From NCBI RefSeq assembly GCF_001457795.1, contig NZ_LN898211.1, forward strand, positions 372,001 to 436,000: a DNA stretch of 64,000 nt, read 5' to 3'. Position numbers and translations under genes: made by a program. The stretch is from Olsenella massiliensis (GTDB lineage Bacteria; Actinomycetota; Coriobacteriia; Coriobacteriales; Atopobiaceae). The notes below the pieces were generated by a model. That model saw only the letters and a list, made by a program, of their open reading frames with translations, did not search any database and was not told the DNA's origin. Position 1 is the stretch's first letter, and every line of letters starts with the position of its first letter. Of this stretch, positions 13,671 to 34,615 are shown piece by piece.

Positions 13671-14665
13671 GCGAGGGCCTCCCGCAGCACGGCGCGGTAG
13701 GCCTCCAGCAGCGACGGCGGATCAAGGGGGGTCATGCCGGCCCCGATGAGCCAGCGCGCCGCGCCCCTGAGATCCGCCACGTCGACGAGCCACACCTCCC
13801 CCTCCTCGCGTCGGCCGTCCCGTCGTCCCGCCCCGGCCTCAAGCTGGCCGCGGGCGTCCTGGTCGCAGGACGGGGGGACGACGACGCGCGCCTGGGCGCG
13901 ACGAGGCCCCATCTGGAAGGGAAGCTTGCAGAAGGCGTTGACGACGAAGTCGGCGGGAATCTCATAGGCGCCCGCATCGCCGCCCGCCCGCAGCTCAAGG
14001 AAGCGGTCGGCGCGAAAGGTCCGCGCCCGCTCGCGCCACGGCGCGCCCGCGGCCAGCTCGGCGCTGTCCTGCGCCACGACATAGATGCAGCCGTGCAGTC
14101 CAAAGGCACCGAGAAGCGCGAGCGAGCGGCGGCTCGTCTCTCCTCGGGCGTCCTGGTAGAGCGCCTCAACGGGGCGTCGCTCCGACAGCGCTCGGAGGAG
14201 CCCCGCCGTCAGGCCCCCGTCATCCCTCGCCGTCCTTCGCCGCACGGCGCCCCCCATGTATCGGCGGTCCACCTTCTCGAGCGCCCGCGCAAGCTCATGG
14301 CGCAGGGCAAACTCGGGGTCATCCAGGAGGGGCTGGCAGACGAGGTCAACGAGCAGGGCCTCCTCGTCGGATAGCCCCTGCTCGCCGGCAAAGCTCTCGT
14401 CGGGGTCCGCCCTCCATCCCGCCTGCCCTCCGCCGAGCGAAACGGGGCGAAGCACCAGGCCCAACGCCCCAAGACGTCGTCGGTCGCGTTTGAAGGCGGT
14501 GTCGAAGCTGTCCTTGACCAGGCTCCCGTAGTAGCGCCGATGCAGCTCCGAGCCGGCAAGGGGCCCTCTGGCGTTGGAGAACGCGACAATGAGGCTCGCG
14601 AGGCGCCGGGCCTGCTCGTCATCCTTCGTCATGCACCCGCCGCCCTCCTGGCGCGTCTCGCTCAT
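13667..14665 (-). CDS. WYL-domain transcriptional regulator (PafB-like, first of a pair)
   Basis: A 332-residue protein with an N-terminal DNA-binding region (SLIVAFSNARGPLAGSELHR, then DTAFKRDRRRLGALGL). A WYL-type domain follows (VEALYQDARGETSRRSLALLGA, then LHGCIYVVAQD and RTFRADRFLELR). I chose the ATG at 14665 because GGGAGG lies four bases upstream. ATG 14632 with AGGAGG further away is an alternative, and the longest frame from 14770 adds an Arg/Gly-rich stretch with no support. The pair is co-translated and probably forms a heterodimeric regulator. Confidence 0.75.
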   Translation of the reverse strand: MSETRQEGGGCMTKDDEQARRLASLIVAFSNARGPLAGSELHRRYYGSLVKDSFDTAFKRDRRRLGALGLVLRPVSLGGGQAGWRADPDESFAGEQGLSDEEALLVDLVCQPLLDDPEFALRHELARALEKVDRRYMGGAVRRRTARDDGGLTAGLLRALSERRPVEALYQDARGETSRRSLALLGAFGLHGCIYVVAQDSAELAAGAPWRERARTFRADRFLELRAGGDAGAYEIPADFVVNAFCKLPFQMGPRRAQARVVVPPSCDQDARGQLEAGAGRRDGRREEGEVWLVDVADLRGAARWLIGAGMTPLDPPSLLEAYRAVLREALA

Positions 14666-14779
14666 GCGACCTCCCTTGCCCACGCCGCGCCTCGCCTTCC
14701 GTCGCCCGAGCGCGGGCCCCGGCGGGCTCCCGTTGCCCGTTTGGAGCGCGCCGCGTCGGCGAACGTGCACCTTTAGACG

Positions 14780-14803
14780 TATACTCTATCGTTGAATCGA
14801 TAG
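14780..14803 (+). promoter_or_regulatory. Probable promoter -10 and small inverted repeat before the M28-like gene
   Basis: TATACT (14780-14785) is followed directly by CTATCG-TTGAAT-CGATAG, a 6-bp inverted repeat. No good -35 is seen. It could be an operator or a short 5' hairpin. Confidence 0.35.
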
Positions 14804-14834
14804 TCGAGACAGCCTTCGGCAAGGGGAACACAGC

Positions 14835-17800
14835 ATGGCTTCCACGCGCGACTACACAGACTACCTCAACGACCGCGTTGACATCGCCCCGGCCAACAGC
14901 CAGGAGGAGCTGGATGCGGCACAGCTCATCCACGCGATCATGGACGAGCACGGCCTTGACGCCACCATCCAGGAGTTTGACGCGCCCGCCCAGGGTGACC
15001 TGGCACACGACCTGACCTACCTGCTCCTCGTCGTCGGCATGGTCATGTCCGGCATCCTCGGCACGCCCGCCGGCGTCATCGGCCGGCTGCTCGTGCTTCT
15101 GTGCACGGGCGTCCTTGCCGCGCGCTTTGGCGGCTATGACCTGCTGGGCGGCCTGGGTCCCAAGGCCCGCAGCCAAAACGTCATCGGCGTCCATCGCGCC
15201 GAGGGTCCGCTGGTGGTCAAGGGCAACCGTCCCATCGTCGTGGTGGCCCACTACGACACGCCCAACGAGGGGCTGCTCCACAAGCCCCAGACCGCCGGGT
15301 TCCTTCCCGTCATCCGCCGCTCGTCTCTCTGGATCGTCGCCGGCATCGCCCTGTGCGCCTTCGTCCAGCTGCTCGGCTTCATCCCCGACGCCGCGCGGCA
15401 CCTCTTCTGGATCGTGGGCATGCTCGCCGGCGTTCCCCTCCTGGCCGTCGCCGCCGCAGGGGTGTACGAGAGGTTCGCCCCCTGCACGGCCGGCGCCAAC
15501 GACAACAAGTCCTCCGTCGCGGCGCTCCTTGGCGTCCTTGACCTCGTCCGCCCTGCGGACGACGCGGCCAAGCGCTGGGCGGCGTCGCACCCGCGCACCG
15601 CGCCCGCCAAACAGGACGGAACCGCTCCCGCACCGGCGACCCACGACGGCGAGGACGCCGCGCCTGCGGCGCCCGACGGGCCCTATGGGCGGGACGCCGA
15701 CGAGGATGCCGCCGGGGGCGTCGCTGCCGTCTCCGCCCGTCTGGGCGGGCTGGCCGCCTCGCTTCGCACGGGCGCCCTCGACCTCGTCGGGCGCGCGCGC
15801 GGCGCCGTCCTGCATGACGAGGGCGCTCCCGACGGTCGGGACGTTCAGGACGATGCGTCGGACGCCCCCACGGTCGTGGCGACGACGCGCACGGCAACGC
15901 CGGCCTCGTCGGAGTGGGGCTCGGTCGAGCTGGCCCAGCCGACGCTCCGGCTGGACGGCGAGGCGCCCCATGCCGACGAGAACGACGCGGAGAGCCCTCA
16001 AGAGGGCGCGCCTGAGGATTTGATCGAGCAGGCCCACGATGTGCAGGCCGCAGATGACGACCTGCGGCCAGGCCGGGAGCAGGCCGCATCCGCCGCGGCA
16101 CCCGCGCCCGCGACGTCGTCTCAGGCCCGCATGCGTACCGCAAACGAAAAGCCGCTGGATGCGACCGGGCGGGCGGGGGCTGTCTCTTATACACATCTAG
16201 AGGTGTATAAGAGCCAGGCGCCGGAGACCGTCGCGACCGAGGAGGCCTTCCACGGCGTCGTCCGTCGCGGTGCGGGGTTCGTCGAGAGCCTCCAGATTCT
16301 CCCGTCCGACTGCGAGATCGTGTATGAGCGCCCGCCGCGCCCCAAGATCGACCTCTCGCGCCTGCCGGAAGTTCCTGCGATGCCGGAGTTTCGCGTGGAG
16401 GACTTCTACCTTCCGCCGACCGAGGGCCAACAGGAGGGCCCGGAGGTCGATGACGAGACGGGGACCGGCTACATCCCACCCTTCATCAACCCGCACCGTC
16501 GCAGCGTGACGTCCTCCGTCACCGCCGATGTCGCCGCATCCGCCGACGACCAGGCTACCGCTCGCTACGCCCCGCACGTCGATGACGCCTACAGGGCCGA
16601 CGACGGCTCGTGTGCTGGGGCGTCGTACCCTCCCACGACCCAGGATCTGCTTGACCGGGTTCCCATCCCGGAGTATCAGGTGGTCGGCGTCGACGACGCC
16701 GGGCACGACGGTCAGGCGCCCGCCCGTCGCGGCGAGACCCTAGACGACTTTAACGCCACCGAGGGCGTCGAAGCCACGGCGGAGCCGTCGTCCGACGTCC
16801 CTAACGACAATGACGCCCCTGCTTCCGCGTCCGACGGTGACGTTCGCTCGGAGGACTCCTACGACGACGAGCGGCCCTATGACGCCTATTACGATGACGA
16901 CCTCGACGACTATGACGTCGAGCCTGCCGGGATCCTCGACAAGATTCGTTTTGCGCTCGCTGACATAGGGGGGCGCCTCTCAAAGCGAGACAAGATGTCG
17001 GGAAACACCGAGACCTTCATGCCGTTGCCCGACACGTCGCGCACGGCCGAGGTGGCAAGGCCGGCGCCGGCCGCCGCGACGGACGAGGCGCATCCGACCC
17101 AGACCGGCGGCGTGGAGCCCGCCGGCCGCGCCGCCGCCGATTCCACCTTGCCTCAGGAGCAGGGCGACGCCGACAGCACGGCGCAGGCAGAGCCTCCGAC
17201 AAAGGAGTCAGGCGCCACCGTCACGCCCGACTCCAGCGAGGAAGACGCCTCGCCATCCTCGCTGGTCAAAGGCAACTTTGATACCGGGGATGACACCCGC
17301 AGCCTCGTCGAGGGCGACATGGCGGGACTCGACCTTGCCGAGGAGGAGCCTCAGCCCGAGGAGCGTCCCGCCCCGCGTCCCATCGACGACCCGCAATGGG
17401 GCACGCCCGACTATGCCCCCGCCTCGCCCGTCGCTCAGCGCGCCGCCCTCTTTGACCTGCCGGATCCGTCGGTCATGCCCAAGGACCCCTTTGCCCCGGA
17501 CGACCTGGCCCCTGTCGACATCCAGGACGCGCAGTCTCCGTCGGATGACGGCGCGGCGCAGGCGCGTGGCCAGCGCCAGCCCATCGGTCTCGTGCGCCCC
17601 CAGCATACCGAGCCCGCAGCGGCCCCGGCGTCCTCGAAGCGACCTCGGTCAGAGCGCTTTGGGAGCTTTGGGCGCCTTGGCAGGAAGAGGCGCGAGGAGA
17701 AGGAGCAACCGGACTCCATGAGCGAGTGGTTGGGCGTTGACGAGGACTACGACGCAAAGAAGAACGGCCGCGCCATCGGGTCCTGGGACAAGTTCAAGGA

Positions 17801-18428
17801 CGAGGAAGGCGGCAACGGACGACGCCGCCCGTGGAAGGGCGGTGCCACCGAGCGCTTTGACCTGCGGGACGAGGAGGCGCCGCAGGCGGGGGAGGCGTCA
17901 CCCGACGTCAATTCGCCCGACGCGGGGGAGCGCCCCTCGGAGGAGGACCTGCGCGAGTCGATTCTGGGCATGAGCGACGACGAGCTTCTCTCACACGACA
18001 TCTGGTTCGTCGCGCTTGGCGCCTCGACCCTGCGCCACGCCGGCATGCGGGAGTTCCTGGCGGACTACCGAAAGTCCATACGCGGCGCGTTCGTCATCAA
18101 CCTCGACTCCGTGGGTGCCGGCGACCTTACGCTTCTGACCAAGGAGGGTGTCAGCTCGGCGCACAGGGCGGACCGCCGCCTGGCAAAGCTTCTCGCCGCC
18201 GTCGCCAAGGACCTGCACATCCCGCTGGGCAGGATGCGCTTTGACTGGACCGACACGGACGCGACGCCCGCCATGGAAGCCTCCCTGCGCGCGGCGACCA
18301 TCATGGGCGTGTCGTCGCAGGGCGTGCCCGCGCTCTCGCGCACGGCGGACGACGTGGCAGAGAACGTGAACGACCGGCAGGTCGGTCAGGTCACGGAACT
18401 GGTGGCGGAGCTCATCCGTCGTTCGTAG
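14835..18428 (+). CDS. Membrane protein with a split M28-peptidase-like fold and long acidic insertion (contains an artefact)
   Basis: A 1197-codon frame. The N-terminal 240 residues contain hydrophobic segments (about 55-100 and 160-215), the M28-like zinc motif VVVAHYDTP and GANDNKSSVAALLGVLDL. The M28 fold resumes only near residue 1050 (DIWFVALGASTLRHAG, AFVINLDSVGAGDL, DWTDTDATPAMEA). The roughly 800 residues between are Asp/Glu/Pro/Ala-rich and probably disordered. The Glu-Glu pair that M28 enzymes carry in the third motif is not seen (ALGAST instead), so activity is doubtful. Codons for 16128-16217 derive from sequencing adapters and copied DNA, so the true protein is probably about 30 residues shorter or otherwise different there. 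Confidence 0.6.
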   Translation: MASTRDYTDYLNDRVDIAPANSQEELDAAQLIHAIMDEHGLDATIQEFDAPAQGDLAHDLTYLLLVVGMVMSGILGTPAGVIGRLLVLLCTGVLAARFGGYDLLGGLGPKARSQNVIGVHRAEGPLVVKGNRPIVVVAHYDTPNEGLLHKPQTAGFLPVIRRSSLWIVAGIALCAFVQLLGFIPDAARHLFWIVGMLAGVPLLAVAAAGVYERFAPCTAGANDNKSSVAALLGVLDLVRPADDAAKRWAASHPRTAPAKQDGTAPAPATHDGEDAAPAAPDGPYGRDADEDAAGGVAAVSARLGGLAASLRTGALDLVGRARGAVLHDEGAPDGRDVQDDASDAPTVVATTRTATPASSEWGSVELAQPTLRLDGEAPHADENDAESPQEGAPEDLIEQAHDVQAADDDLRPGREQAASAAAPAPATSSQARMRTANEKPLDATGRAGAVSYTHLEVYKSQAPETVATEEAFHGVVRRGAGFVESLQILPSDCEIVYERPPRPKIDLSRLPEVPAMPEFRVEDFYLPPTEGQQEGPEVDDETGTGYIPPFINPHRRSVTSSVTADVAASADDQATARYAPHVDDAYRADDGSCAGASYPPTTQDLLDRVPIPEYQVVGVDDAGHDGQAPARRGETLDDFNATEGVEATAEPSSDVPNDNDAPASASDGDVRSEDSYDDERPYDAYYDDDLDDYDVEPAGILDKIRFALADIGGRLSKRDKMSGNTETFMPLPDTSRTAEVARPAPAAATDEAHPTQTGGVEPAGRAAADSTLPQEQGDADSTAQAEPPTKESGATVTPDSSEEDASPSSLVKGNFDTGDDTRSLVEGDMAGLDLAEEEPQPEERPAPRPIDDPQWGTPDYAPASPVAQRAALFDLPDPSVMPKDPFAPDDLAPVDIQDAQSPSDDGAAQARGQRQPIGLVRPQHTEPAAAPASSKRPRSERFGSFGRLGRKRREEKEQPDSMSEWLGVDEDYDAKKNGRAIGSWDKFKDEEGGNGRRRPWKGGATERFDLRDEEAPQAGEASPDVNSPDAGERPSEEDLRESILGMSDDELLSHDIWFVALGASTLRHAGMREFLADYRKSIRGAFVINLDSVGAGDLTLLTKEGVSSAHRADRRLAKLLAAVAKDLHIPLGRMRFDWTDTDATPAMEASLRAATIMGVSSQGVPALSRTADDVAENVNDRQVGQVTELVAELIRRS
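16128..16217. other. Assembly artefact: Nextera mosaic ends plus a copied fragment
   Basis: Bases 16128-16167 repeat 20293-20332 exactly (40 bp). They lead into CTGTCTCTTATACACATCT (16180-16198), which is exactly the 19-bp Tn5 mosaic end used in Nextera libraries. An inverted second mosaic end with two mismatches follows directly at 16199-16217. The 90 bp keep the frame open and encode SYTHLEVYKSQ, a peptide of the kind known from adapter contamination. This is not a natural transposon. Confidence 0.95.
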
Positions 18429-18446
18429 CCAGCACAACAAGCTGTC

Positions 18447-18482
18447 GGGCCGGGGTCGCCTCAAGGCGGCCCCGGCCCTTTT
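18447..18482 (+). terminator. Intrinsic terminator after the M28-like gene
   Basis: A 14-bp GC-rich stem with one mismatch (18447-18460 with 18465-18478), loop TCAA, is followed by four T residues. Confidence 0.85.
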
Positions 18483-18630
18483 GCGTAGGGTCCGTTCTGC
18501 GGCAAGGCAAAGATTGGCGCCGCGGTTTTTGTCCGTCGGTCCTGTTAGCTGTAGTGGCTCCCTCTTGCACCACATATAATCAAATCAATGGTACTTGAGT
18601 GCTTGACGGCAGAGGAGAGGAGGCTGCGAG

Positions 18631-19779
18631 ATGGCGATGTTGAATCCCGAGGTGCTTGAATGGGCCGTTCGCCGCAGCGGCCTTTCCGGCGAGCAGGTCG
18701 TCAAGGCTTTCCCCAAGTACCGTGCGTGGCTCGACGGCTCCTGGAAGCCGACCGTCAAACAGCTGCGCGACTTCGCGAGCAAGACCCATGTGAGCGTAAG
18801 TGAGCTCTTTGGCAGCGAGTTGCCCGATTATGCGCTACAGATCGCAGACTTCCGCACAGTGAATGACACGCCGTCCCAAGACCCGAGCCCCGAGCTCTTC
18901 GACACAATCGACGCCATGATGGGCAGACAGGACTGGCTGCGGGACTATTTCCTGCATGAGGGATACGATCCCGTCGGATTTGTGGGCTCTTACCGATGGG
19001 CCGACCGCAGCGATGAGACGGGGGAGAGGATCGTCAGCGACCTGCGCGGGCTTCTGAAGCTCAATGAGGGCTGGGCCGCCTCCTGCAAGACGGTTGCGGA
19101 GGCGCTCAGGATGCTTAAAGACCGCGTGGAGACGGCGAACATCTCTGTGGTCATCAATGGTGTGGTGAACGACAACACGCATCGCGCACTGGATGTGGAC
19201 GAGTTCAGAGGCTTTGTGTTGGCGGACGACATGGCCCCGATTATTTTTATCAATGGGCGCGACGCCAAGAGCGCGCAGGTCTTCACGCTCGTGCACGAGC
19301 TATGCCACCTGGCCTTTGCCCAGACGGGCGTGAGTAACGCGCCCGACGACGAGGATAGCGACGTCACCTTGGAGCGGTTCTGCAACGCCGTTGCCGCCGA
19401 CTTCCTTGTGCCGACGAGCATCCTGGCGAGCAGGTTCGATGGCGGTGCCACGGACGCCTATCCTGCGCTTAAGGCCATCGCCCATACGTGCAAGGTCAAC
19501 TTTGTCGTTGTCGCGCGGAAAGCCAAGGACATGGGGCTCATCGACGAGGACACCTTCTTCGCTGCCTGGCGGAGCTACAAGGATGACGTGCCCGAGGCCG
19601 CCAAGCCTGACAAGGTCGGAGGCAACTACTTCCTCAGCAAGCAGTACAAGCTCGGATCTGTGTTCTCCGAGGCCGTGCTCAACGCCGTGAACTCCGACTA
19701 TCTGAGCTATCGTGACGCCTACGACCTGACCGGCCTGAGCGCACCAAGCTTCAAGACCTACTTCGAAAAGGTGGCGTGA
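18631..19779 (+). CDS. XRE-type helix-turn-helix protein with ImmA/IrrE (COG2856) metallopeptidase domain
   Basis: A 382-residue protein. Residues 1-60 form an XRE-like DNA-binding region (EWAVRRSGLSGEQVVKAF, then TVKQLRDFASKTHVSVSELF). The central domain has the zinc-protease motif VHELCHLAF (HExxH) near residue 225 and a downstream CNAVAADFLVP helix typical of ImmA/IrrE. GAGGAGG lies upstream of the ATG at 18631. It overlaps the next gene by four bases (GTGA). COG2856 proteins next to a DUF4411 gene are a recurrent, probably toxin-antitoxin-like, pair. A possible -10 TATAAT lies at 18575-18580. Confidence 0.85.
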   Translation: MAMLNPEVLEWAVRRSGLSGEQVVKAFPKYRAWLDGSWKPTVKQLRDFASKTHVSVSELFGSELPDYALQIADFRTVNDTPSQDPSPELFDTIDAMMGRQDWLRDYFLHEGYDPVGFVGSYRWADRSDETGERIVSDLRGLLKLNEGWAASCKTVAEALRMLKDRVETANISVVINGVVNDNTHRALDVDEFRGFVLADDMAPIIFINGRDAKSAQVFTLVHELCHLAFAQTGVSNAPDDEDSDVTLERFCNAVAADFLVPTSILASRFDGGATDAYPALKAIAHTCKVNFVVVARKAKDMGLIDEDTFFAAWRSYKDDVPEAAKPDKVGGNYFLSKQYKLGSVFSEAVLNAVNSDYLSYRDAYDLTGLSAPSFKTYFEKVA

Positions 19780-20264
19780 CGTTGGAACGCTACCTCCTCG
19801 ACGCGAACATCTTCATAACGAGCGAGCATCACATCCCGCAGGACATCTTCGAGAGCTTTTGGCTTGAGTTGGGCAACACGCTTGAGTCGGGCGTTGCAGT
19901 GCTGCATCAGACGGTGGTAGACGAGCTGAAACGCAAAAAAGACCCTCTTGTCGATTGGATTGGGAGTCTGGACGGCGTTGAGGCGATGCCTGCGTCCGAC
20001 AAGACGTTGGAGAAATACCTCGAGGTGTGCGCCTGGGCCGACGGGCAGAGCTATGAGCCGCGGGCACTTCGCGAGTTCAAGGATGAGACCCGCGCCGATG
20101 CATGGCTGTGCGCCGAGGCACTGGCGAGCAACTTGACACTAGTGACCTATGAGACTCCGTCGAACAGCCTGAAGAGGGTGAAGATCCCTAACGTCTGTGA
20201 GGGTCTTGGCGCTCGTCACGTCGACGGCTTTGACTTCATGCGGGCGCAGGGCTTTCGGTTCTAG
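19776..20264 (+). CDS. DUF4411 family PIN-like protein, partner of the ImmA/IrrE gene
   Basis: A 162-residue protein starting at GTG 19776, which overlaps the upstream stop. The N-terminus ERYLLDANIFITSEHHIP matches the DUF4411 pattern (LLDANxFI), with a PIN-type first aspartate. Later acidic positions fall in VVDELKRKKDP and DETRADAWLCAEA, and LTLVTYET fits the fourth PIN strand. PIN-like nucleases are common toxins, and the coupled upstream gene would be the regulator or antitoxin. The function is inferred from family and coupling. Confidence 0.8.
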   Translation: MTLERYLLDANIFITSEHHIPQDIFESFWLELGNTLESGVAVLHQTVVDELKRKKDPLVDWIGSLDGVEAMPASDKTLEKYLEVCAWADGQSYEPRALREFKDETRADAWLCAEALASNLTLVTYETPSNSLKRVKIPNVCEGLGARHVDGFDFMRAQGFRF

Positions 20265-20435
20265 GCGAAATGCCGTTACCGTTATGTGTATGCGCATGCG
20301 TACCGCAAACGAAAAGCCGCTGGATGCGACCGTGACGGCGGGGGAGGCCGTCTCTGGGCTTTGCGTGTACGCCTGCCAATTAGGCAAATCAAAGACGGGC
20401 TTTCCGACCGCCGTTGTGCTAAGATTTCGCGTTGC

Positions 20436-20510
20436 GCGGGCGTCGCCAAGTGGTACGGCACGAGCTTCCCAAGCTCGCATTCGCGGGTTCGAGTCCCGTC
20501 GCCCGCTCCA
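20436..20510 (+). tRNA. tRNA-Gly (anticodon CCC)
   Basis: A 75-nt cloverleaf: acceptor GCGGGCG/CGCCCGC, anticodon arm CGAGC-TTCCCAA-GCTCG giving anticodon CCC, TψC loop GTTCGAG, and an encoded CCA end. It reads GGG codons. It is followed by a strong terminator. Confidence 0.96.
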
Positions 20511-30879: not shown

Positions 30880-31776
30880 ATGGGAGCTATGGAGCTTCGA
30901 CCGGACTCGCACGGCAAGGTCCGCGACATCTACGACTGCGGCGACAGCCTGCTGATGGTTGCCAGCGACCGCATCAGCGCGTTTGACTTCATCCTACCGG
31001 ACGAGATTCCCCATAAGGGAGAGGTGCTGTCGCGCATCTCGGCATTCTGGTTCGACATGTTCAAGGACCTCATACCCAACCATCTCATCTCGATGGACGT
31101 GGCGGACTTCCCCAAGGGGTACCAGGCGTACGCCGACTACCTGACCGGCAGGTCCATGCTGGTCAAGAAGGCCCAGACCGTTCCGATCGAGTGCATCGTG
31201 CGCGGCTACCTGACCGGGTCGGGCAAGAAGACCTACGACGAGGACCAGACCGTCTGCGGCATCAAGCTCCCGGCCGGTCTCACCGAGGCCTCCAAGCTTC
31301 CCGAGCCCATCTTTACGCCCTCGACCAAGGCCGAGCTCGGCGACCATGACGAGAACATCTCCTTTGAGCGCTGCGCCCAGATCGTGGGCGATGACGTGGC
31401 GCGCCAGCTTCGCGACGCCTCGCTCAAGATCTACACGGCGGCGTCTGAGTATGCCGCCGAACGCGGCGTGATCATCGCCGACACGAAGTTCGAGTTTGGC
31501 TTCATCGACGGCGAGCTCACGCTCATCGACGAGGCGCTCACGCCCGACTCGAGCCGCTTCTGGCCCGCCGACGCCTTTGAGCCCGGCAAGGTCCAGCCCA
31601 GCTATGACAAGCAGTACGTCCGTGACTGGCTCAAGGCCAACTGGGACATGACCGGCGAGCCCCCGCACCTGCCCCAGGAGGTCATCGAGGGAACGTCCAG
31701 GCGCTACGAGGAGGCCTTCCGCATCATCACGGGCGCACCGTTCGAGTCCATGAGGAGCTCACATGTCTCTGCGTGA
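30880..31776 (+). CDS. purC: Phosphoribosylaminoimidazole-succinocarboxamide synthase (SAICAR synthase)
   Basis: A 298-residue ATP-dependent ligase joining CAIR and aspartate in purine synthesis; PurB acts on the product. It shows GKVRDIYDCGDSLLMVASDR, SAFDFILPDEIPHKG, ECIVRGYLTGSGKKTY and the second half IADTKFEFGFIDGELTLIDE. The ATG at 30880 has a GAGGAGAG site; ATG 30889 is a possible alternative. The length is that of the longer family branch. A -10-like TACAAT lies about 60 bp upstream. It overlaps the next start by 14 bases. Confidence 0.96.
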   Translation: MGAMELRPDSHGKVRDIYDCGDSLLMVASDRISAFDFILPDEIPHKGEVLSRISAFWFDMFKDLIPNHLISMDVADFPKGYQAYADYLTGRSMLVKKAQTVPIECIVRGYLTGSGKKTYDEDQTVCGIKLPAGLTEASKLPEPIFTPSTKAELGDHDENISFERCAQIVGDDVARQLRDASLKIYTAASEYAAERGVIIADTKFEFGFIDGELTLIDEALTPDSSRFWPADAFEPGKVQPSYDKQYVRDWLKANWDMTGEPPHLPQEVIEGTSRRYEEAFRIITGAPFESMRSSHVSA

Positions 31777-32378
31777 CACCATCGAGGCCGCCCGCAAGGA
31801 GGCCCAGGAAGCCGGCGTCCTGCCCAAGGCGGGCGCCGAGGACGCCAACGACAAGGCCGAGAGCGACGAGGAGCGCGCGGGCTTCACGCGTCGCTCGGTC
31901 GCTGTGTCTGATACACATCTTGAGGTCGGTTCCTCGCAGGTATTCCATCACGATGTAGTCCCTGTCTCTTATACCCATCTAGATGTGTAGAGGAGAGCTG
32001 CTCAAGGACGACCCCGCCTACAGGCGCGGTCAGCGCGTCTGGTGGATTCTGCTGGGCGCGGGATTCGGCGCCACGGTCATATCCACGATCCTGATGACCT
32101 ACTATCCTGACGCGCAGGCAGACCCCCTCTCGGTGCCGGGGCTGCTGTCCATCGCCCTCATCGTGCTCGCCTACGGCGGCATCGTCAGCGCCCTGATCTA
32201 TGACTGGCGCAAGGTCAAGCCGCTCCGCACGGCCGCGGAGGCGGCGGTCAGCGGCATGAGCGACAAGAAGGTGGCGCAGATCCTGCGGCAGGACGCCGAG
32301 AAGGAGGCCCGCAGGAAGGCGCAAAAGGCCGAGGCGCGCGCCGCAAGGAGGGGCGTTCGCAACACGCGTCACGAGTAG
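31763..32378 (+). pseudogene. Small membrane protein gene broken by an assembly artefact
   Basis: The N-terminal part (31763-31901, SD GAGGAGC) encodes an acidic segment starting MSLRDTIEAARKEAQEAG. The C-terminal part (about 32001-32378) encodes DDPAYRRGQRVWWILLG, two membrane segments and a Lys/Arg/Ala-rich tail (KVAQILRQDAEKEARRKAQ). The two parts are in different frames and are separated by 98 bp of adapter and copied sequence. The living strain very probably has one intact gene, and real codons are probably missing here. Function unknown; coupling to purC is by a 14-base overlap. Confidence 0.75.
31902..31999. other. Assembly artefact: degenerate Nextera mosaic ends around a pknB fragment
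   Basis: A mosaic end with two mismatches (31902-31920) is followed by 39 bp identical to 34330-34368 of the pknB gene (copy at 31921-31959). Next comes a mosaic end with one mismatch (31962-31980), then a degenerate inverted end (31981-31999). The copied segment encodes part of a kinase on the minus strand and has no reason to be here. The mismatches look like low-quality read ends. Confidence 0.95.
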
Positions 32379-32656: not shown

Positions 32657-34615
32657 CTAGTTGCCGCCCGACCCCGCCGAACCCGCGCCGCCCGCGTTCG
32701 CGGAGGCTCCGGACGACACGCTGATGGCGATCGTGGAGCCCCGGGTGGCGCTGCCGGTGACGGACTGGCTGATGACCGTGCCCTTGTCCACGGTCGAGCT
32801 GGCCTCATAGCTCGTCGACGCCGTGAATCCCGCCGCCTTCAGGGCGCTCACCGCCGCGCCTTCGCTCATGCCCACCACCGAGGGGACGGTCGCCTTCGTC
32901 GATCCGGAGGAGACGGTGATGGTGATGGTGGAGCCCTTGGCGGCCTTGTCGGTGCTTGACTGCCTGATGACGTGACCCTTGTCAACCTCGTCGCTCTCGG
33001 CCGACTTGGTGCTCACCGAGAACCCCGCCGCCTCCAGGGCGCTCGTGGCCTCCTGCGCCGACATGCCGACCACGTTAGGAACGTCCACGTTCTCGGCGCC
33101 CTTCGAGAGCTGGTAGGTGACGGTGTCGCCCGCCTTTGCCGAGGCGTCCTTGCCGGGGCTCTGGGACGCGACGGTCCCCACCTCGACGTCGGAGCTGTAG
33201 ACGGAGTCCCCCGCCTGGCCCACGAGGCCCACGGCCTTGAGCGCCGCCTCGGCCTCGGACGGCGTCATGTGCGTAAGGTCGGGAACCGTGACCGTGGCGG
33301 CGGGCTCCTCCCCCTTGGAGACGACGAGGTTGATCTGGGTGCCCTTGGGCTTGCGCAGCCCGGCGTCGGGGTCCTGGTCAATGACGAGGCCCTTCTGCAC
33401 GGTGGAGCTGTACTCCTCCTTCACGCTGCCCTTTTGGAAGTAGCCGGCCTCGGAGATCTCCCGTAGGGCCTGCTCCTGCGTGAGGCCTATGAAGTTGGGG
33501 ACGGGCTGGGTCTGCGAGCCGTTGCCGAGCATGCTCACCACGGCGACGATGGCGCCGACGAGCAGGATGGTGGCCACGATGGTGCCGGCCACGAGGCGAC
33601 GTCGATGGGACCGGCGCCGGTCGGCCTCATCCTGGAGCGCCCTCTGCGTGGCCATCTGCGGGCGCAGATGTCCCGTGGCGTCCACGCGGCGGAAGGACGC
33701 GGTGTTGCCCGCGGGCGCGGCCGCCTGGGTTGGGCTCGTGACGGGCAGGGGGGTCGTGACGTTTTGGATCGTGGCCGTCGCGCTGTTGACGGCGCGCAGG
33801 CGGCCGGCAAGATAGTCCCTGAGCACGCGCGCCAGCTCGTCTGCCGACTGGAAGCGGTCGGACGGGCTCTTCTGCATGCACTTGAGGATGATGCTCTCCA
33901 GCGAGGGGTCGATTTGGGGGTTGCGCTGGCTGGGCGGCATCGGCTGCTCGTTCACCTGCTTGAGCGCCACCGAGATGGCGTCGTCGCCGTCAAAGGGAAC
34001 CGATCCCGTGGCCGCCTCGTACATGACGACGCCCAGCGAGTAGATGTCCGTGGTGGGTCCGAGCACCTTGCCCTGGGTCTGCTCGGGCGAGACGTAGTGG
34101 GCGGTCCCCAGCACCGAGTTGTCCGTGGTCAGGTGGCTGTTCTTGGCCCGCGCGATGCCAAAGTCCATGACTTTGACGTTGCCGTCGGGCTGGACCATGA
34201 TGTTTTGGGGCTTGATGTCGCGATGGATGATCTCGTGGGCGTGCGCCACCGAGAGCGCCTGGGCGATCTGTGACCCGATCTGGGCGACCTTCTTGCAGTC
34301 GAGCGCCCCGTGACGCCGTATGCCGCTCTTGAGGTCGGTTCCTCGCAGGTATTCCATCACGATGTAGTACGTCTCGCCGTCCTTGCCCCAGTCATAGACC
34401 GAGACGATGTAGGGACTCTGGAGCGCCGCCGCCGCCTGGGCCTCCTGCTTGAAGCGTGCCGCGAAGGAGGGGTCGGCGGCAAACTGGGGCAGCATCGTCT
34501 TGATGGCCACCGTACGCCCGAGCACCTGGTCGATGCCGCGATACACGACGGCCATGCCGCCTGTGCCGATCTTGTCCTGGACCGCGTATCGTCCGCCGAG
34601 CAGCTTGTCTGACAT
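32657..34615 (-). CDS. pknB: PknB-type Ser/Thr protein kinase with four PASTA domains
   Basis: A 652-residue kinase. The catalytic domain has the glycine loop IGTGGMAVVYRG, VAIK lysine, HRDIKPQN and DFG (VKVMDFGIA). Activation-loop threonines are visible (LTTDNSVLGTAHYVSPEQ). A juxtamembrane linker leads to one membrane segment (LVAGTIVATILLVGAIVAVV, about 345-365). Four PASTA repeats (starting near VPNFIGL, VPDLTHM, VPNVVGM and VPSVVGM) and a Gly/Ser tail follow. PASTA domains bind peptidoglycan fragments and lipid II. It is the last gene of the envelope-growth cluster. A 39-bp piece of it is wrongly duplicated at 31921. Confidence 0.96.
   Translation of the reverse strand: MSDKLLGGRYAVQDKIGTGGMAVVYRGIDQVLGRTVAIKTMLPQFAADPSFAARFKQEAQAAAALQSPYIVSVYDWGKDGETYYIVMEYLRGTDLKSGIRRHGALDCKKVAQIGSQIAQALSVAHAHEIIHRDIKPQNIMVQPDGNVKVMDFGIARAKNSHLTTDNSVLGTAHYVSPEQTQGKVLGPTTDIYSLGVVMYEAATGSVPFDGDDAISVALKQVNEQPMPPSQRNPQIDPSLESIILKCMQKSPSDRFQSADELARVLRDYLAGRLRAVNSATATIQNVTTPLPVTSPTQAAAPAGNTASFRRVDATGHLRPQMATQRALQDEADRRRSHRRRLVAGTIVATILLVGAIVAVVSMLGNGSQTQPVPNFIGLTQEQALREISEAGYFQKGSVKEEYSSTVQKGLVIDQDPDAGLRKPKGTQINLVVSKGEEPAATVTVPDLTHMTPSEAEAALKAVGLVGQAGDSVYSSDVEVGTVASQSPGKDASAKAGDTVTYQLSKGAENVDVPNVVGMSAQEATSALEAAGFSVSTKSAESDEVDKGHVIRQSSTDKAAKGSTITITVSSGSTKATVPSVVGMSEGAAVSALKAAGFTASTSYEASSTVDKGTVISQSVTGSATRGSTIAISVSSGASANAGGAGSAGSGGN

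Follow-up and report, generated by a model that had tools for sequence, protein, structure and literature searches.

A 90-bp insert in an M28 peptidase-like gene of Olsenella massiliensis is almost certainly an untrimmed mate-pair read fragment

In the Nextera mate-pair procedure, as outlined in excerpts of PMC4074385 and PMC6298255, genomic DNA is tagged with a junction adapter, circularised and sheared. The TruSeq adapters of mate-pair libraries are ligated after circularisation (excerpt of PMC6298255). The same 38 bases that form the junction linker are printed, in an excerpt of PMC7357533, as a biotin-labelled ring adapter that circularises fragments of ∼4 kb. In one bacterial genome paper based on mate pairs, the available part of the text gives a fragment range of 1.5–11 kb (PMC5552949). 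For the Nextera mosaic end, an excerpt of PMC11575248 prints the sequence with the tails CCGAGCCCACGAGAC or GACGCTGCCGACGA behind it.

The window analysed here is a stretch of 64,000 nucleotides (bases 372001–436000 of contig C13) from a genome of 1.82 Mb in 13 contigs. An M28-family peptidase-like ORF of 1197 aa (14835–18428, plus strand) contains, in its variable middle region, 90 bp that almost certainly do not belong there (16128–16217). The first-pass annotation had placed an exact mosaic end in this gene, and the 19-bp match is confirmed on the minus strand at 16180–16198. The inverted second copy that it described is also present, on the plus strand at 16199–16217, but with two mismatches. 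The two arms are adjacent and head to head with nothing between them, and together (16180–16217) they match the mate-pair junction linker at 36 of 38 bases. In 100 shuffled sequences, mosaic-end matches occurred at a mean of 0.00. The 40 bp on the left of the insert (16128–16167) are identical to 20293–20332, as had been noted earlier, and the match runs on to 52 bp, ending at 16179 and 20344 with 49 identical bases. The copy (16128–16179, plus strand) thus consists of 40 identical bases, three mismatches in the next four (positions 41, 43 and 44) and eight identical bases up to the adapter; because the match continues to 16179/20344, the copied piece extends right up to the adapter. Its native source (20293–20344, plus strand) is located on the same strand at an offset of +4165 bp, between a DUF4411 gene (19776–20264) and a tRNA-Gly gene (20436–20510). 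A promoter and terminator scan of this donor site added nothing. All 90 bp are in frame in the ORF, as the first-pass annotation had stated, and read RMRTANEKPLDATGRAGAVSYTHLEVYKSQ.

The first base past the adapter, 16218 (plus strand), is the presumed start of the circularised fragment and is followed by the conserved block VRRG..F.ESL.ILP.DCEIVYE. A fragment that runs from 16218 to 20344 measures 4127 bp in assembly coordinates, and the order observed in the insert (fragment end, linker, fragment start) is exactly what a 4127-bp circle gives. On the right side, the 150 bp from 16218 have a single 19-bp match elsewhere in the stretches searched.

Almost certainly, the 90 bp at 16128–16217 are part of a mate-pair read that escaped trimming and stayed in the assembly. 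Under this explanation, the mosaic-end adapter would have been placed on the ends of a genomic fragment of ∼4.1 kb (16218 to 20344), and closure of the circle would have made 20293–20344, the 38-bp junction adapter and the sequence from 16218 onward direct neighbours in a single molecule. A read across the joint could then have been used to extend into or close a gap in the M28-like gene, and the fragment end and adapter would thereby have been written into the middle of the gene. Untrimmed mate-pair reads were most likely used to close a gap between two contigs, presumably at a scaffolding or gap-filling step, and the native bases between 16127 and 16218 are probably missing or different. The mismatches of the focal copy cluster near the adapter, where they might be read errors; in the copies generally, mismatches suggest read ends of low quality.

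Of the 60 genomes searched, the source genome included, 58 have a match to the M28-like ORF. Its C-terminal part gives a modest match to Pfam PF04389 (Peptidase_M28; residues 1054–1193, 27.1 bits with a curated cut-off of 21.3), and an NCBIfam search returned no family. The N- and C-terminal parts of the protein are conserved and enclose a long variable middle, and the open frames of relatives differ in length, with 679 aa in one and 1802 aa in another as examples. Ten of the 11 relatives' loci returned were aligned using the longest open frame of each (L178 was left out). In the alignment, the artefact region corresponds to a linker that varies in both length and sequence and lies just before the conserved block. 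Since length and sequence vary in this region, the ten aligned relatives do not give the length of the hole or fix the native base count at the insert. The protein as assembled here carries ∼30 false residues. On the minus strand, the adapter creates the start codon of a probably spurious ORF (14619–16196, MCIRDS...).

A true genomic duplication, in which the 40–52-bp repeat belongs to the chromosome and the adapter alone is artificial, would account for 40 exactly matching bases in an otherwise open gene. Such a duplication is extremely unlikely. The copy directly adjoins the adapter, and its side and strand are those expected from a circle, a feature shared with eight other sites in the genome. 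Its source is intergenic DNA next to a tRNA gene. Moreover, the proteins of the ten relatives differ from the copied segment and are variable at its position. Upstream of the donor site, the window contains a gene pair (18631–20264) whose products are the DUF4411 protein and a protein that carries an IrrE-like (Peptidase_M78) domain (residues 197–298). The two genes overlap by 4 bases in an arrangement that resembles a toxin–antitoxin pair; an NCBIfam spr1629 antitoxin match is far under its cut-off.

The mosaic end recurs throughout the genome. At ≤3 mismatches, 34 matches were found and assigned to 23 sites, including three within the window; the reversed control pattern of the mosaic end gave no match in the genome. 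Eighteen stretches contain all 23 sites. The measurements cover 22 of them and exclude the one at the start of contig C9, a contig whose first base already lies within the linker. Of the 22 measured sites, 17 have both arms in head-to-head order (≤7 mismatches per arm) and five lack a recognisable second arm. Many sites carry differing single-base errors. One site adjoins an N (C13:764978), as expected of scaffolded contigs.

A flank copy was counted when it spanned ≥25 bp and abutted the site, a criterion set after flank matches had been seen. Abutting copies in the same stretch occur at 11 of 22 sites compared with 6 of 360 random places, and no abutting copy is present within the stretches searched at the other 11 sites. 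Two of the 11 cases, both left flanks copied from upstream, were set aside: at C13:764966 the copied segment is shared with the right flank of C13:764650, and the copy at C11:184952 is a repeat of 33 bp at a distance of only 96 bp. In the nine retained sites, the four left-flank copies all originate downstream (+2409, +3595, +4165 and +9642) and the five right-flank copies all originate upstream (−2588, −2887, −3944, −4382 and −4510). All nine thus lie 2.4–9.6 kb away on the side and strand predicted by a circle, a pattern with a chance probability of 3.8e-6 given random side and strand and independent cases. These offsets fall within the 1.5–11 kb range in the available part of PMC5552949, which serves as a comparison and not as evidence of origin. 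Some shorter or non-abutting matches, which were not counted, break the rule, for example a 21-bp left-flank match at −4589 in C9.

The mosaic end works as an end for the Tn5 transposase, and on that ground a real transposon scar, or a mini-Tn5 inserted by engineering into the strain that was sequenced, was weighed. This origin is vanishingly improbable. The mosaic end itself was built in the laboratory as a hybrid of natural Tn5 ends. The arms are adjacent, with no cargo or transposase, and a single genome contains 23 such sites, many of which differ in their single-base errors. At nine of them, the flank is a copy of DNA that lies kilobases away, and the 38-mer is also found in unrelated public genomes.

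The window contains a second artefact at 31902–31999, which includes two further mosaic-end matches (31902–31920 and 31962–31980) 60 bp apart. The first is a minus-strand arm with two mismatches and is directly followed by a misplaced plus-strand copy (31918–31959) of 34327–34368, with 42 of 42 bases identical and an offset of +2409. A junction adapter follows at 31962–31999, with one mismatch in its left arm and a degraded right arm (5 mismatches in 19). The mosaic arm that runs into the copy at 31902–31959 looks as if two extensions had met. In the opposite of the focal case, this linker gives a stop in the frame that opens at 31763 (...VSYTHLDV-stop; MSLRDTIEAARKEAQEAG...).

More complex arrangements are found elsewhere in the genome. 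At C13:764650–765003, 278 bases from 2588 bp upstream are inserted between two damaged mosaic-end arms, with the N at 764978, and this segment is a larger false insertion than the focal one. Two junction adapters stand 84 bases apart at C13:277065–277224. In a whole-genome search, the 84 bp between them (C13:277103–277186) resolved into two pieces, from C13:667140–667193 (minus strand, 87%) and C12:279415–279445 (97%). Further searches of this kind matched the right flank at C10:97653 to C12:63301–63349 at 90% and gave only a weak match for the left flank (C13:87211–87251, 85%). The sources of these three further pieces do not fit one simple circle, for which circles formed between molecules or misjoins made during assembly could be the reason.

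The adapter sequences around the junctions bear on the type of library. The linker at C12:193144 has no mismatch, and 22 bases to the left of it lies the sole exact occurrence in the genome of GCTCTTCCGATCT, which we take to be the TruSeq adapter end; five other occurrences carry one mismatch. The 22 bases between this end and the junction occur only once in the genome at ≤2 mismatches. A TruSeq-type end in place of paired-end tails is seen at one site only, which is not the focal site. The tails CCGAGCCCACGAGAC and GACGCTGCCGACGA were not found in the genome at ≤3 mismatches. The TruSeq end and the failure to find these paired-end tails favour a mate-pair library. A sheared-DNA library that used the ring adapter of PMC7357533 would look alike.

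Paired-end Nextera libraries contain the same 19-bp mosaic end (excerpt of PMC11575248), and read-through in such a library could have left untrimmed mosaic ends that overlapped and joined two unrelated contigs. Read-through of this kind is very unlikely here. The arms are joined directly, without either of the tails, and a TruSeq end stands beside one junction; read-through also makes no prediction that left copies lie downstream and right copies upstream. Paired-end read-through, a real Tn5-type insertion and a true duplication were all considered and all rejected. The adapter-derived chimera proposed in the first-pass annotation is borne out by the linker, the copied flank and the genome-wide recurrence. 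The direct joint of the arms, the negative search for paired-end tails (≤3 mismatches) and the mate-pair geometry of the flanks support a mate-pair circularisation junction, which is a more exact identification than a generic Nextera chimera.

At least 119 stretches of public genomes, represented by one genome per species, carry the exact 38-mer; the carriers include Collinsella ihumii GD8, Enterococcus sp. 10A9_DIV0425, Ideonella sp. MAG2 and Scytonema tolypothrichoides. In the related set, 2 of 100 genomes contain it, the source genome counted. An exact-word search located the 38-mer in five plasmid records and gave no match in phage or E. coli genome records. An abutting copy within the locus is found at 71 of 146 distinct public junctions compared with 9 of 139 control places. 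For copies on the same strand, left copies lie downstream in 33 cases and upstream in 13, and right copies lie upstream in 34 cases and downstream in 15; two more copies are on the other strand. The first-pass annotation had predicted that databases would take up the false peptide without anyone noticing. The plasmid records do not bear this out: no annotated feature lies under the best of the places in each of the five records (14 places in all), as judged from an incomplete gene table. A literature search for the peptides SYTHLDVYKRQ, MCIRDS and YTHLDVYKR found no paper. Among the papers listed by the literature search, no report of this adapter in deposited genomes was noticed either, a result that does not prove the absence of such reports.

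The linker is palindromic, and on either strand one of its three frames contains no stop (VSYTHLDVYKRQ). Given this stop-free frame, an open frame is expected in a fair share of cases, and the open frame across the focal 90 bp is unremarkable. Stop-free frames of ≥100 codons cross 45 of 146 exact public junctions and 15 of 17 head-to-head sites in this genome (either strand and no random-place control in both counts). The G+C content is 66.5%, and long chance frames are common in such DNA. Because the linker is self-complementary and has one stop-free frame, such inserts can pass gene callers.

The focal finding is a quality problem and not biology, and the 90 bp are a well-explained artefact of a known kind. 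To the first-pass annotation, this analysis adds the exact source of the 90 bp, the genome-wide recurrence and the second case in the window. Leftover junction adapters can probably be used as a record of mate-pair-read insertions inside assemblies. If so, each adapter flags inserted sequence, with 23 sites flagged in this genome, and the offset of the copied flank gives the fragment length of the library. As the adapters mark both places and fragment lengths, doubtful joins and invented gene segments could be listed without reads. With the 38-mer present in so many public stretches, a screen of assemblies for this one string would be cheap and useful.

Compared with the described systems, the public 38-mer junctions share with this genome the linker and an excess of circle geometry, and they differ in having many offsets <1 kb, some junction arrays and a geometry that is less clean than here. 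Nextera paired-end read-through shares the 19-bp mosaic end with the focal insert and differs from it in three respects: here, the tails are not found, the arms stand head to head and the flanks are ordered as on a circle. The Nextera Mate Pair junction adapter and the ring adapter in the excerpt of PMC7357533 have the 38 bases of the focal linker in the same order, with two mismatches here. The protocol in that excerpt uses ultrasound shearing and linker ligation, whereas the Nextera kit attaches the adapter by transposase, and the assembly cannot tell which was used. With a mate-pair junction, the focal site shares flanks from both ends of one kilobase-sized fragment, and a TruSeq end stands by one junction elsewhere in the genome; the difference is that the junction here sits in the assembly and not in a read.
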